Source of the DNA: Dysgonomonas sp. PH5-45
GTDB lineage: Bacteria > Bacteroidota > Bacteroidia > Bacteroidales > Dysgonomonadaceae
Assembly (NCBI RefSeq): GCF_029893235.1
Contig: NZ_JARXWE010000016.1
Location: 1 to 64,000, forward strand
Length of the DNA: 64,000 nucleotides
Reading direction: 5' to 3'
Shown here: in pieces, positions 21,465 through 54,743 of the stretch
Position numbering within the stretch: position 1 is the first letter of the stretch
How the letters are laid out: each line of letters begins with the position of its first letter
Made by a program: the position numbers and the translations under genes
The notes under the pieces: model-generated
Database searches by the model: none
What the model saw: the letters and a program-made list of their open reading frames with translations, nothing else
What the model was told of the DNA's origin: nothing

Positions 21465-22574
21465 CTAAATCACGTTAAAGCCCAATTCTTTCAGCACAGC
21501 GGCTTCGCCCGCGTTGGCGTTCATTACGCTGTATGCGCAATATTCCCTACGCAGAGGATAGTAACTCCGTAGGTAATTAAACTTCTGGGGTTCGGTTCTT
21601 AGCTTATCGTTGTCTGTAAGCAGATGGTAAGGGTAGAGTATGGCTTCGTACAGGCGGTTACCCGTAAAAAGGGTCATATCTATAACCGGATTGGGGGCTT
21701 CGGGAGCTTTTATGGCTTCGATAGGCTGTTTGCTCAGTCCATAAAAGTCGGCAACGGCTTGCAAGGCCATACGTGTGGCATTGGCTTTCCCATCGGCCGA
21801 ATAACCTGCGATGTGCGATGTAGCCACATCCGCAAGTTGCATATACTCTATATCTATATCGGGTTCGTTTTCCCAACAATCTATAACCGTACCCGACACC
21901 TTGCCCATCCGGATAACTTCCTTTATGGCATCCGTTTTCACTACTCCCCCTCTTGCCGCGTTTATTATTATGGGGTTACGGCGAAGGTTGGCAAAGAAAC
22001 TTTCGTTAGCCAAGTGCAGGGTCTTATATTCACCCTCTTTGGTGAGTGGTGTATGGAAGGTGATGATGTCGGCTTCGCCCACAATGGTATCCATGTCCAC
22101 AAACTGGGCAGAACCTTCGGCTTTTTGTCTGGGTGGGTCGTTCAGCAGCACTCGCATACCCAATATCCGGCATGCTTGGGCAACTTTTTTCCCTACATTA
22201 CCCACGCCTACAATACCTATGGTTTTATCTTTCAAGTCAAAACCTTTTGTTTGTGCCATGTGTATAAGTGCCGAAACAATATACTGCTGCACCGAGCCCG
22301 AATTGCATCCCGGAGCATTTGTCCAGCGGATACCGTTTTGCTCGCAATAGCGGGTGTCTATATGGTCAAAACCTATGCTTGTGGTACAAATCAGCTTTAC
22401 GGCCGAGTCTTTCAGGTTCTCTTCGCCAAAGCGGGTAAGTGTGCGTACAATCAACGTGTCGGCATCTTTTATTATTTGGGGTGTAAACTCGTTTCCTGCC
22501 AGATAGGTTACATCGCCGTAGTGTTCGGCAGCACCTTTCAGAAAAGGGATATTGGCGTCGGCAAGTATTTTCAT
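21465..22574 (-). CDS. pdxB: Erythronate-4-phosphate dehydrogenase
   Basis: It oxidises 4-phosphoerythronate in the DXP-dependent route to pyridoxal phosphate. The 369-residue protein is a D-2-hydroxyacid dehydrogenase: NAD-binding GIVGVGNVGKKVAQACRILG (about 118-137), substrate/catalytic INAARGGVVKTDAI, ENEPDID and the catalytic-His region TSHIAGYSADGK, followed by a PdxB dimerisation domain of about 80 residues. That tail separates it from SerA. Its start overlaps the stop of the upstream ABC ATPase gene by 4 nt, so they are co-transcribed. Confidence 0.93.
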   Translation of the reverse strand: MKILADANIPFLKGAAEHYGDVTYLAGNEFTPQIIKDADTLIVRTLTRFGEENLKDSAVKLICTTSIGFDHIDTRYCEQNGIRWTNAPGCNSGSVQQYIVSALIHMAQTKGFDLKDKTIGIVGVGNVGKKVAQACRILGMRVLLNDPPRQKAEGSAQFVDMDTIVGEADIITFHTPLTKEGEYKTLHLANESFFANLRRNPIIINAARGGVVKTDAIKEVIRMGKVSGTVIDCWENEPDIDIEYMQLADVATSHIAGYSADGKANATRMALQAVADFYGLSKQPIEAIKAPEAPNPVIDMTLFTGNRLYEAILYPYHLLTDNDKLRTEPQKFNYLRSYYPLRREYCAYSVMNANAGEAAVLKELGFNVI

Positions 22575-50700: not shown

Positions 50701-51309
50701 GCTTTCGGGCAGCGGGTCATAGTATCTGCCTCGTACTTCAAACCCCAAGGCAAAGCCAATCGCGGATTTATAATTGACGTGCCCGAGGTGAAAGCCGATA
50801 AGGTGTACCTGAAGTGGACCGCACGCTCCTTCAGTGAGGATGCCCCCGAAAGCTATCAGGTGTTGATTGCCTCCGAAGATGTGAGCGACGTGGACGGATT
50901 CACTTTGCTGAAAACCGTGACAAACGAAAACTGGGAGTTGACAAACCATCTGATTGATGTTTCGCAATATGCCAACAAGCCTTTCCGGGTTGCTTTCCGC
51001 CAAATTACGGAAAACGGGCTAATATTGCTTTGGGACAACATCAGCATACTCAGTTCTTCGGCATCGTCTATCAACCCCGAAGTTCAAACAGACCAACTAT
51101 TGGTATATCCAAATCCTGCAAAAGACAGGATTACTATCAGGAATACAGCCTCTATGAATCAGCTACGCATAGTTGATCTAAAAGGGCGAACCCTGATGGA
51201 TATCAACAATATTAACAAAGAAGCGGTAGAAGTGAATATATCTGCATTTGAGAAAGGTATTTATATTGTTTATGTTGACGGCAAAGCAGCCAAGATTATA
51301 AAGCAATAA
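47797..51309 (+). CDS. Subtilisin-like (S8) serine protease with anchor-J domains and T9SS sorting domain
   Basis: A 1170-residue secreted protease. The catalytic residues are all visible: Asp201 (VVVAIMDAGVDVKHPD), His259 (DHGTHVAGTVAA), Asn371 in AAGNNGFDD and Ser443 (GTSMACPHVSGVAALI). A signal peptide (about 1-26) and a pro-region (about 28-145) precede the catalytic domain (about 165-500). Then come a beta domain, a first choice-of-anchor-J domain (about 618-790), a CARDB-like domain, a second J domain (about 908-1090) and a T9SS sorting domain from about 1102 (LLVYPNPAKDRITIRN). It is last in the cargo operon (16 nt gap), closed by a strong terminator. It may process its operon partners or degrade external protein (inference). 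Confidence 0.93.
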   Translation: MQKKNKYWILAGFFVFFIACFGIQAQEVEYVPGRISVKLDREAAFKISPRLRSGQIKSASPTYVQTGISGLDAVLKQAKTTRLRRLLPYSPKYEERYKAEGLDLWYELEVEEANILQIVKNLASQQGILLAEPVYPIKQASAANNDYPFNDPHIGKQWSYNNTGFNPESGLPAGTAGTDINLYKAWEITAGSPNVVVAIMDAGVDVKHPDLVANLWVNTAEKGGASGVDDDGNGYIDDIHGHDFVNHNLTIEASDHGTHVAGTVAATNNNGVGVAGVAGGTGKGDGARIMSCQVMTANGASGDIFEAFVYAANNGAVIAQCSWAWMTAGYKNQAVLDGIDYFVKYAGKDSEGNPLTRTPMNGGLVVFAAGNNGFDDAYYPAYYEKCYAVAAVNIDKERAVYSNYGSWIDITAPGGWDKSPSGQFGNILSTRPHSAYGYDFGTSMACPHVSGVAALILSKYGNGNFTPEMLKQRISSTARVLTSDPGKMGAGFVDAFAALSSDIPDAEANLYFGSFLLEENNDGSFVTYEQPFRILNSGSGEMVISAMEFSSNQYTITGFTAGQKLKSGEYADFTVRFTPTAVGGYKDKLTVTYGGSFSGKSTETFLHANITGWATTRKVVLFKDDFERGMYKWSSSDQDGDRRNWFYEINSSYILAKSGSFFVTSESGSSTESYTPNNWLISPVIDLTECPENSDVVLSYWVRIISSTFGAENYKVAVSTVPEKDFAPADFSNILISEAVEPSDFNDGYNHKTVSLSAFSGKKIKIAFIHAETSPSRVLVLDDVEVAHFPKKDFAQVVINKMVSPGYEIVKGANYPLTISVSNIGNLAAQNVEVAYTFGQNSKVKGTIPNIAAGKTVSYTFSTEISADMEGDNDLLIEANCPANLFKNSDNVKNWFTGKIWINPYPAEYTWDFERTNSQGLYWPSNFTKFNYDKNTVDPFLKYTSWGAQWPSTDNNACLANYFLANNTAFGQRVIVSASYFKPQGKANRGFIIDVPEVKADKVYLKWTARSFSEDAPESYQVLIASEDVSDVDGFTLLKTVTNENWELTNHLIDVSQYANKPFRVAFRQITENGLILLWDNISILSSSASSINPEVQTDQLLVYPNPAKDRITIRNTASMNQLRIVDLKGRTLMDINNINKEAVEVNISAFEKGIYIVYVDGKAAKIIKQ

Positions 51310-51337
51310 CAAACCTCTTCTCGGTTCATACAACCAC

Positions 51338-51380
51338 AAACGAGGTTGTGCCGAATGGCGCGGCCTCGTTTTTTAGTTTT
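51338..51380 (+). terminator. Rho-independent terminator of the T9SS cargo operon
   Basis: AAACGAGG pairs with CCTCGTTT, with an inner TGTGCC/GGCGC stem, followed by a T-rich run. It ends the four-gene unit. Confidence 0.85.
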
Positions 51381-51399
51381 TTCCGCTCCGGCGTTTTAT

Positions 51400-51720
51400 G
51401 GCTCAGCGGATTTTCGTGGTTGATAAGCCTTAAAAATTGCAAATATGGATGGTTGTTTTCTGTAGAAAGTCCTGTTAGTCGAAGTATTCGTTTCATTACC
51501 TTTAAACAATGATAGGGACTTTGTTCTGTATCTACACATAGATGACATTCGACTTGTCGGCAGGAAACGAGGCTGAATAATTCAATGTCATACCGTTTTT
51601 TAAGGCGGCAGCTACAATTGCAGATACATTGAATGTTTTTTTGCTTTTGGCTTTACCAATAAACCATTGTCAACACATGTCAACTAATGCCTCAGTGTGA
51701 CATCGGGCTTCACCGCAAAA
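51400..51720 (-). pseudogene. Decayed RepA-like AAA ATPase of a mobile element
   Basis: On the minus strand two frames join into one recognisable protein piece. One frame reads ALVDMC-stop-QWFIGKAKSKKTF and NVSAIVAAALKNGM. The next frame continues VDTEQSPYHCLKVMKRILRL. GKAKSKKTF and VDTEQSPYH are the Walker A- and Walker B-like stretches of AAA/RepA-like ATPases carried by Bacteroides mobilizable and integrative elements. An in-frame TGA (at 51670-51672) and a frameshift near 51535-51540 break it, and the C-terminal half is missing. Both outer limits are approximate. Confidence 0.55.
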
Positions 51721-51861
51721 TTGTTTCGCGGTAGAAATACGGTACGAAAACAGGGTGAAAAACAGGTACTAACAAAAAGTGATGGGTAAGTGTTAAAACG
51801 AAGGGAGGCCCTCAAAATGAGAAACTTATTGCTAATTGATTACCGTTGTTTACAGTTAATT

Positions 51862-52056
51862 CTAAGGCTTCATTCGAAGAAGATATTGGCGAAAAAAATC
51901 CTCTTTACAATGTCCGAAATACTCTATATCTTCCCAATCCTGCGCTCCACAGATTACAGCGGCTACAGTTATAAAGACAATATCACAGGCTTGGTGTTGT
52001 ACTTTTACTTCCTGGCGAAAATCAGGAATACGATGTGCGAAATCTAATATATTCAT
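51862..52056 (-). mobile_element. ISAs1-family transposase remnant (N-terminal 64 aa)
   Basis: The frame holds the DDE_Tnp_1-associated N-terminal domain: FAHRIPDFRQEVKVQHQAC, ITVAAVICGAQDWEDIEYFG and HCKEDFFRQYL. The match to ISAs1/H-repeat transposases is clear, but the frame stops after LRMKP where the family continues for another 300 residues or so with the DDE catalytic domain. None of that domain is found downstream, so this is a dead fragment. No terminal inverted repeats were identified. Confidence 0.75.
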
Positions 52057-52205
52057 CTGGTTTTATTTGTTTGAATATCAGACAAATATACGAATTTTTA
52101 TTGATGGGAACAAATAATAACGAGCTTATATTCAGATGATTACGAAAATATACACATCTTCGTTATTGATTAATTTTCATGCGTTTGCCCTGATTGGCCC
52201 CCCAT

Positions 52206-52337
52206 TCATACATATACTCCATAACAGAAAGGTACGCCAATAGTTGCCTGAGTACTAAGCCGGGGCATAGCAAAAAAATATGTAATTGATAGAATCGTGG
52301 CCGGCAGCCACAGTTTTGTATATTTGTTTGTTTTCAT
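52206..52337 (-). CDS. Tiny hydrophobic peptide candidate (43 aa)
   Basis: The frame from ATG 52337 encodes MKTNKYTKLWLPATILSITY then FFAMPRLSTQATIGVPFCYG and VYV: a basic N-terminus, a hydrophobic segment with possible signal cleavage, and one cysteine. It starts 22 nt after the next small frame upstream on the same strand. No family recognised; it may be a leftover of a decayed region. Confidence 0.3.
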   Translation of the reverse strand: MKTNKYTKLWLPATILSITYFFAMPRLSTQATIGVPFCYGVYV

Positions 52338-52359
52338 AAAGTTAATGTTACACTCTCTG

Positions 52360-52482
52360 TTATTTAGTTAAGTAATCTTTCAAAGAAATAGATACGGGGT
52401 CCATGCCGGGCTTAATTAAATAGAGACACTGTCCGCTATTTTCACAAATAGCTGGGCAATTGATAAAAGGCAAAATAGGCAT
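52360..52482 (-). CDS. Tiny cysteine-containing peptide candidate (40 aa)
   Basis: The frame from ATG 52482 encodes MPILPFINCPAICENSGQCL then YLIKPGMDPVSISLKDYLTK, with three cysteines in a CPAIC-x5-C layout. It has no signal peptide. It could also be the end of a frameshifted longer gene, since the preceding minus-strand stretch (MLLLQNDKEEVVIKTKYGG) is open in another frame. Function unknown. Confidence 0.3.
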   Translation of the reverse strand: MPILPFINCPAICENSGQCLYLIKPGMDPVSISLKDYLTK

Positions 52483-52549
52483 GGAGTGCCCCCGTACTTA
52501 GTCTTGATAACCACTTCTTCTTTATCGTTTTGAAGTAACAGCATAAGAA

Positions 52550-52732
52550 TTATGAACAGAATTTTTCGCAAAAAAATGAAGGGATACCGCCTTTATTTTT
52601 TGCATAATCAAAAAAAGCAATTGTGTTAGTTGTGATTTTTGTGAACATCACCCCCTTGGCAAGATTACAATACCATCCAATTTTTCGGACAGCAAGAGCG
52701 ATATTATAAATAATCGTCATTTGGCCTTTCAT
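52550..52732 (-). CDS. Small ORF of unknown function behind a consensus promoter box (60 aa)
   Basis: It encodes MKGQMTIIYNIALAVRKIGW ... NKGGIPSFFCEKFCS, with three cysteines overall, two of them near the C-terminus. A perfect TAAATTTG box lies 25 nt upstream on the same strand, which is the only support that it is expressed. No homology is recognised. Confidence 0.3.
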   Translation of the reverse strand: MKGQMTIIYNIALAVRKIGWYCNLAKGVMFTKITTNTIAFFDYAKNKGGIPSFFCEKFCS

Positions 52733-52756
52733 TATTTCGATTCATTATTCAGTTGG

Positions 52757-52764
52757 CAAATTTA
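52757..52764 (-). promoter_or_regulatory. -7 promoter box in the scrapyard region
   Basis: The minus strand reads TAAATTTG. It points toward the three small frames at 52732, 52482 and 52337. Confidence 0.45.
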
Positions 52765-53097
52765 ATGATAAAAATGAAACGAAAAACACAAAAGGCCTCC
52801 CAAACAACAGTTGTTAAAATTTAGATAACCGATTTTATCTTATTGGAAGTATTTATTTTTGCTTGTTTTTCTCCTGTCGAAACTCCTTGTTTCCGGTTTC
52901 GGAATCCTTTCTCCATCTATGTTGTTGCATATTGGGCAAGTACACAAACTTAAACTCTTTTTAGTGTTTTTTATGACGGCTGCGTAATTATATTTCCACA
53001 CGTTAATTCTTTATTTATTTGCAATTTTTAAAACAAACAAGCAGTTATTTAACAATATGGCAACAAGTGTTCGTTTGTACCCTTCTATCAATTTTCC
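52765..53097. other. AT-rich non-coding stretch
   Basis: I find no gene, hairpin or known repeat here. It may hold remains of the gene once beyond the porin fragment, but nothing can be named. Confidence 0.4.
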
Positions 53098-53589
53098 CTA
53101 TATATTTATATCCAGATTCACAAACAGATATTGTTCCGACTTAGCTCTGTCGGGATTGATATTGCGGAAGTTGGGCGATACCTTAACCTGCTTCAATGGT
53201 TGATATTCAATTCCTCCCACCATCAGTTGTCCGCCAAGGTTGTTCCATGCCGAAGAAAAGTTGTGGGGTGTTTTCGAATCCATCAAATCGTAGCGCGCAT
53301 ACACCCGCCACTTAGGAGCAAAACTGTACGAAACGTATGCGAAATAACCATAGTAGTCTTTATCTTTTACGAAACCTTTGTTAAAAACACGGTTATATTC
53401 AACTCCCCCCGAAAGTTCTTTATTCTGATAGCCTGCAAACAAAGCCAGTGAATACTGGTTTCCGAACTTTCCGAGAACGCCCTCAGGTAGTGCATCGTGC
53501 TGTTCGTCTGTTTCGGAATAAACATCTCCATAAACCCTAAACACAACATTTCTGATTGGGAATACGCTAATGCCCGCCGCATAACGCAT
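53098..53589 (-). pseudogene. 5'-truncated porin (OprO/OprP-like), C-terminal fragment
   Basis: The 163 residues are the last strands of a 16-stranded-type phosphate-selective porin or related barrel: alternating strands such as QYSLALFAGYQNKELSGGVE and YGYFAYVSYSFAPKWRVYAR, and an end VNLDINI. Family members are about 350-450 residues, so more than half is missing. The open frame fades near 53600, where a fragment of an unrelated gene begins on the other strand. No signal peptide is present, so it cannot be exported; treat it as a pseudogene. Confidence 0.75.
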
Positions 53590-53600
53590 AGAATTAAATA

Positions 53601-53864
53601 TTGATTATAAGCGCATCTGTTGAAAATTGGATTAGACCTTGGTCCGAAAAAAATGGAATAGATCTGACTCTTTCTACTTTGATAGAAGTAAAAAACGGTT
53701 TGCTTACGGGGCTATTTTTGTCAAAGAACTGTTATGGAAAAGAAAAGGTTAACAGGCTTTTAGCAGAATTCCCCAATCGAAGCGATTATCATTTAATTGT
53801 TTATGGCGATAGTGCTGGAGATAAGGAGTTAATTGATTTTGCGGATGAAGGGTATTACCTGTAA
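53601..53864 (+). pseudogene. 5'-truncated HAD-superfamily (SerB-like, HAD-IB) phosphatase, C-terminal fragment
   Basis: The 87 residues match the second half of a HAD-IB hydrolase: IISASVENWIRPWSEKNGID (motif II serine), the K-containing NCYGKEKVNRLLAEFP and motif III/IV VYGDSAGDKELIDFADEGYY. The catalytic DxD motif I and the cap domain, about 100 residues, are missing. The only available start is a TTG inside the conserved core. It cannot be an active phosphatase. Confidence 0.78.
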
Positions 53865-53886
53865 GAATAATTCACTGTTTTGTATG

Positions 53887-53894
53887 TAATTTTG
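53887..53894 (+). promoter_or_regulatory. -7 promoter box of the GNAT gene
   Basis: TAATTTTG matches TAnnTTTG and ends 28 nt before the ATG at 53923, supporting that start over the TTG at 53911. Confidence 0.6.
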
Positions 53895-53922
53895 CCGTAT
53901 AAACGGAAACTTGCCAAGGTAT

Positions 53923-54354
53923 ATGATTTGTAAAGTACAGGAAAACGATTATCCTCGCTTACAGCAGATTTGGGAAAATGCTGTGAGGAATACCCACGAT
54001 TTTTTAGAACCTAACGACTTTGAATATTATAAGTCGCAACTACCCGTGTATTTCAAACATGTAGATTTGTACGCTTATAAAGATGAATCGGGAGAAGCGA
54101 GAGGCTTTCTGGGTATATCGGTCGATAGAATAGAAATGCTTTTTGTTGAAGACTCCTTGCGAGGTACAGGAATAGGGAAGACGTTGGTGCAGTTTGCCGT
54201 CTCCGATTTAGGCGCTTGTAAAGTTGATGTGAACGAACAAAACAAGCAGGCAGTAGGTTTCTATCTTCATTTAGGGTTTAAAACAATGGGGCGGTCTGAG
54301 TTTGATGGCGATGGCCGGCACTATCCGTTGCTCCATATGGAAAGGAATGTATAA
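53923..54354 (+). CDS. GNAT-family N-acetyltransferase (YjaB-like)
   Basis: A 143-residue acetyl-CoA-dependent transferase. The acetyl-CoA loop is LRGTGIGKTLVQFA (about residues 84-97), preceded by strand RIEMLFVED and followed by KVDVNEQNKQAVGFYLHLGF, the usual C-terminal GNAT signature. YjaB-like proteins share the ending DGRHYPLLHMER. Substrate unknown. Start chosen at ATG 53923; a TTG four codons earlier would add MPRY. Its stop lies against the 3' end of the convergent RNase P RNA gene. Confidence 0.88.
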   Translation: MICKVQENDYPRLQQIWENAVRNTHDFLEPNDFEYYKSQLPVYFKHVDLYAYKDESGEARGFLGISVDRIEMLFVEDSLRGTGIGKTLVQFAVSDLGACKVDVNEQNKQAVGFYLHLGFKTMGRSEFDGDGRHYPLLHMERNV

Positions 54355-54358
54355 AAAA

Positions 54359-54743
54359 TGCAGCCGGTCTGTAAGCCGGGTTCTGTTCTTTTAAATCAGA
54401 AACTGAAATTAAAAGTGTTTGCCATTTATCTACGCCTGCCGTCACCGACAGGCTCAAGCGACCTACCCCCCGACATCGGACGAGCAATCCTACATACGCC
54501 GGTATACATGGTCTTACAACCCGCAAGAGGTACGGCTCACGATATCGCTACCGCAACCGGTGGGCTCTTACCCCGCCTTTTCACCCTTACCCGTTTGTTT
54601 CCGCACGGGCGGTTATTTTCTGTTACCCTTGCTCTACCCTCACGGATAGCTTCCACATTAAGAAGTGCGGTGCTCTGTGTTGCCCGGACTTTCCTCTTTC
54701 ATCCCCCCGAAGGAGGGTGCCAGCGGCAAACCAACCTGCTGCA
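54359..54743 (-). ncRNA. rnpB: RNase P RNA (class A)
   Basis: The catalytic RNA that removes tRNA 5' leaders. On the minus strand the conserved blocks appear in order: GAGGAAAGTCCGGGC, AGGGTGAAAAGGCGGGGTAA, AGAGCCCACCG, GTAGATAAATGGC and the closing AACAGAACCCGGCTTACAG. The 5' TGCAGC and 3' GCTGCA pair as helix P1 and set the ends at 54743 and 54359, about 385 nt. A run of T residues after the 3' end (plus strand 54353-54358) acts as terminator. Open frames across this locus are artefacts. Confidence 0.95.

Follow-up and report, generated by a model that had tools for sequence, protein, structure and literature searches.

Two short open reading frames stand head to head in a 64,000-nucleotide stretch of contig NZ_JARXWE010000016.1 from Dysgonomonas sp. 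PH5-45 (the window, in what follows), and the question that they raise is how the 3' parts of two different genes came to meet at one point. A sequence-only reading of the window had proposed that a porin on the minus strand and a HAD phosphatase on the plus strand both lose their 5' halves here, and that one deletion of a shared upstream region would explain this, as would an assembly misjoin. The two frames were found to be present, the porin frame at 53098-53589 on the minus strand (163 aa) and the HAD frame at 53601-53864 on the plus strand (87 aa). Homology searches covered 101 genomes of the family, including the window's own (G000), and the suggested comparison with relatives did recover the genes at full length.

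Homologues of the porin were found in 30 of the 101 genomes, 29 of them other than the window's own. Outside that genome they occupy 30 places, and every frame among them measures 341-396 aa. An alignment with 29 of these (the second G085 copy had no locus), together with the homology search, identified a 3' remnant of this pst-linked beta-barrel at 53098-53595 on the minus strand, comprising roughly the last 165 of 340-370 codons, the stop codon counted in, and 50-69% identical to the relatives over the remnant. Some 180 codons are missing, i.e. the signal peptide and the N-terminal half. The apparent start codon (53589) is an internal codon of the longer gene: the first residues of the frame align at '(K/D)NSMRYAAG' of the relatives, its ATG corresponds to an internal Met in many of them, and the Asn and Ser codons upstream of the ATG (53590-53595) still match in the 29-porin alignment. 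A Pfam search of the remnant gave no match, and the full-length relative in G042 matched BBP2 at 5.2e-07. With the N-terminal half absent, the remnant has neither the signal peptide nor the complete barrel of a functional outer-membrane porin, and on sequence grounds a product devoid of the signal peptide should not work as its parent did.

The plus-strand frame was found to be a remnant of the same kind. HAD homologues were present in 12 of the 101 genomes, 11 of them other than the window's own, at 12 places outside that genome and, as an intact paralogue of about 200 aa, on its own contig C3. Frames of 182-229 aa were seen in 12 of these 13 homologues. The exception is a frame of 143 aa on contig C163 of G053 (locus L122, 127-2853), where a further DUF6080-UbiA-HAD copy has its UbiA split in two frames; this HAD gene is apparently another decaying copy. 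Pfam, homology search and alignment together placed the HAD-type 3' remnant of the window at 53598-53864 on the plus strand. It keeps roughly the final 88 of 200 codons and lacks about 110, and it is 49-65% identical to its homologues; its match to Pfam HAD (1.1e-11) spans positions 106-186 of the 189 in the profile. Here too the apparent start codon (53601) is an internal codon of the longer gene; in the 13-homologue alignment a single matching codon, ATA (53598-53600), stands before this TTG and is itself preceded by TAA. At the other end, the last five residues, after '...AD', are unlike those of the relatives, and the 3' end of the gene is therefore slightly altered. The relatives carry FDFDGT near residue 10, an instance of the DxDGT that we take to be the N-terminal nucleophile motif of a HAD phosphatase. 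The remnant starts past this motif, and its product, deprived of the nucleophile stretch, would not be expected to work as its parent did.

These two alignments set the limit of porin homology at 53595 and the first base of HAD homology at 53598, with at most two unassigned bases in between. The junction (53596-53597, given no strand) is thus confined to 53595-53598, and the loss of both 5' halves at one point holds within an interval narrower than the 'about 15 bases' first noted. A 601-base query over the junction had itself as its sole match in the window's own assembly, which puts the joint outside any repeat. No insertion sequence or long repeat was found at the joint, the repeats detected in 51250-54000 leave it untouched, and scans for promoter-like and terminator-like sequences returned nothing at the junction itself. 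Among the titles and abstract openings covered by a literature search, nothing concerned this porin/HAD locus.

The first explanation to be weighed was an assembly misjoin or chimeric read, by which two intact loci were wrongly connected at the junction. The assembly is a draft in 75 contigs and has repeats at contig ends, and the porin and HAD genes are adjacent and divergent in no relative, both of which speak for such an error. However, misjoins normally sit in repeats, and this joint does not. After a misjoin of intact loci, or after a clean inversion, the 5' halves would also be expected at some other place in the assembly, which is 99.99% complete. For the porin 5' half, two different queries gave no match in G000; strong matches were obtained in all four known carriers used as controls (G020, G057, G016 and G048), and of the two same-genus genomes, G002 gave no match and G001 a chance-level one only (E 0.225). 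UbiA, the partner of HAD in its cluster, was likewise without a match in G000. The query, taken from G016, did match its source genome as well as G048 and G057; neither G001 nor G002 yielded a match, and the single one in G020 was at chance level. The close, porin-linked type of PstC, 78-91% identical in six relatives, is also absent from G000, where the best hit was a 38% homologue on C2. A search with the HAD 5' half returned only the intact C3 paralogue. The absence of these parts favours a real net loss, and we consider a misjoin very unlikely.

We favour the reading that a real rearrangement, with DNA lost on balance, left its scar at the junction, and we regard it as highly probable that breakage and rejoining removed both 5' halves and fused the two 3' halves. 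Such an event would have taken the 5' half of the pst-linked porin and that of the HAD phosphatase, the latter probably along with the DUF6080-UbiA genes, and would have left the 3' halves joined head to head with an overlap of at most a few bases. It was probably one single event; the joining, with neither insertion sequence nor long repeat at the joint, would have been illegitimate, and both remnants are presumably non-functional. The simplest form of such an event would be a single deletion, which presupposes that porin and HAD were once divergent neighbours.

The gene order in relatives bears on this last point. The porin often heads a cluster porin-pstS-pstC-pstA-pstB-phoU-phoB-phoR, in which the pst and pho names are presumptive and assigned from the sequences. 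HAD sits in a DUF6080-UbiA-HAD cluster, behind DUF6080 and UbiA; UbiA shares the cluster at 11 of the 13 tabulated HAD loci, is not beside the window genome's own C3 paralogue and is not listed for G043. The porin is also present in 10 of the 11 other genomes that carry HAD (the exception being G067). In nine of these ten relatives the two genes lie on different contigs, and in the tenth, G078, both are on C43, convergent and separated by about 10 kb, so that divergent neighbours occur in none of the ten. Both same-genus genomes are without the porin and without HAD and thus give no view of the state before the loss. Regions of up to 19 kb flanking the homologues of GNAT, porin and HAD showed no synteny with the surroundings of the junction in the window, and RNase P RNA adjoins GNAT at none of 16 GNAT loci (blastn at 1e-6, a search that had no positive control). 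Gene order is poorly conserved here, and close relatives lack the genes, so that the absence of a divergent arrangement counts weakly against a single deletion. The proposal of one deletion thus survives in part: the lost interval is indeed missing from the genome, whereas the 'shared upstream region' of porin and HAD remains an assumption, and a single deletion needs an ancestral arrangement unseen in any of the relatives. Either the genes became neighbours through an earlier rearrangement, or the event was something other than a simple deletion.

One form that a net loss could have taken is an inversion or translocation with a breakpoint in each gene, whereby the 3' halves meet at the junction, the 5' halves once met elsewhere, and the reciprocal junction was later lost. 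Cutting both genes yields the head-to-head geometry on its own, with no need of a prior divergent arrangement, and the order around porin and HAD in the family is not conserved with the window. Against this, the reciprocal 5' halves are absent, which requires a second loss, and we judge this course of events unlikely. A tandem duplication starting from a convergent arrangement like that of G078 was also considered and rejected, as pst genes are missing downstream of the porin remnant in the window, and the genome has kept no intact copy.

Returning to the favoured scar, the condition of the remnants was examined. Neither remnant contains an internal stop or a frameshift over the 253 codons that they comprise together, and each runs to a stop codon close to where the complete gene would end. 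On the assumption that the two frames have been neutral ever since the break, the absence of stops holds the change since then to at most about 8.6% per site by our computation. The porin remnant retains 36 of the 39 residues that are invariant in the other 29 porins, as many as the intact gene of G016 does, and its terminal branch in the porin tree (0.241) is shorter than that of G016 (0.45). The HAD remnant retains 24 of 29 otherwise invariant residues and has changed five, a score that the intact C3 paralogue equals; of the 14 terminal branches in its tree, however, its own is the longest, at 0.533 (median 0.160). The branch length and changed residues of HAD are what a released remnant would show, as far as about 88 residues can tell; decay of the porin remnant is not clear, so that the evidence for decay is mixed overall, and the break may be recent. 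If the two frames, head to head as they stand, were retained and expressed to make new small proteins, this would account for about 250 stop-free codons, but we regard such a pair as extremely improbable.

The fragment could also have arrived by horizontal transfer, already broken, and the lack of both genes in the two same-genus genomes would fit such an arrival. In contrast, however, the codon usage of both remnants falls inside the range of the window genes, the porin tree places the window copy among family members, next to G016, and no plasmid match was found. We give transfer of a broken fragment very little credence.

The sequence to the left of the favoured scar carries further truncations. 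The mobile-element scrap reported nearby proved real: a terminal IS fragment with the start of a DDE transposase lies on the minus strand at 51876-52192 (the fragment match extends to 52195), as assigned by copy comparison and Pfam (DDE_Tnp_1_assoc, 3.9e-16). It is 95% identical to C37:3863-4182 and, over 80 bases, 99% identical to a sequence on C50; the outer end of the element lies near 52192, the point at which the three copies diverge. The fragment is mosaic in structure: the ~230 bases on the inner side are identical to the C37 copy, while the outer 80 bases are 99% C50-like and clearly diverged from the C37 copy. Comparison with repeats on C3 and C1 identified, at 52229-53060 on the minus strand, a repeated leader and the first ~35 codons of a truncated surface-protein gene (ATG at 52337), whose family is shared with genes on those contigs. 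The long leader upstream of such surface-type genes ('...AQVTIGSD...') is common to several copies on C3 and C1. With both an IS and a surface-protein gene cut short within 1.8 kb of the junction, this is a degraded stretch. Further left, 32 bases at 51400-51431 are 88% like a sequence found ~60-95 bases from several contig ends, the window's own contig included, and probably represent the margin of a repeat that interrupts the assembly. A broken gene of what we take to be GldA type had been suspected near 22574; this was rejected, the gene being intact with a non-ATG start. To the right of the junction, the first gene is an intact GNAT acetyltransferase (53911-54354, plus strand; Pfam), followed by a full-length RNase P RNA gene on the minus strand at 54356-54742 (Rfam RF00010, 244.5 bits, model positions 1-367 of 367).

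Gene remnants at deletion scars are a known pattern of decaying or shrinking bacterial genomes, and the locus resembles them in that adjacent genes are truncated at one breakpoint, no intact porin copy exists elsewhere and mobile-element fragments lie nearby. As at such scars, the genes are full length in relatives and the missing parts are absent from the genome, with the HAD 5' half present as a paralogue only. It differs from them in that the remnants stand head to head, with both frames open as far as a stop close to the regular gene end. Compared with the pst/pho-linked porin of Dysgonomonas-type genomes, the window copy is without the N-terminal half and without the pst cluster; compared with the DUF6080-UbiA-HAD cluster, the HAD remnant is homologous, and the HAD 5' half of that cluster and UbiA are missing from its own genome. 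The junction is most probably an ordinary degradation scar, with no new mechanism and no sign of a working unit, and an annotation should label the two short frames as remnants. For the organism, such a scar would testify to gene loss, in a species without an intact pst-linked porin, the close pst type or the UbiA of the HAD cluster.
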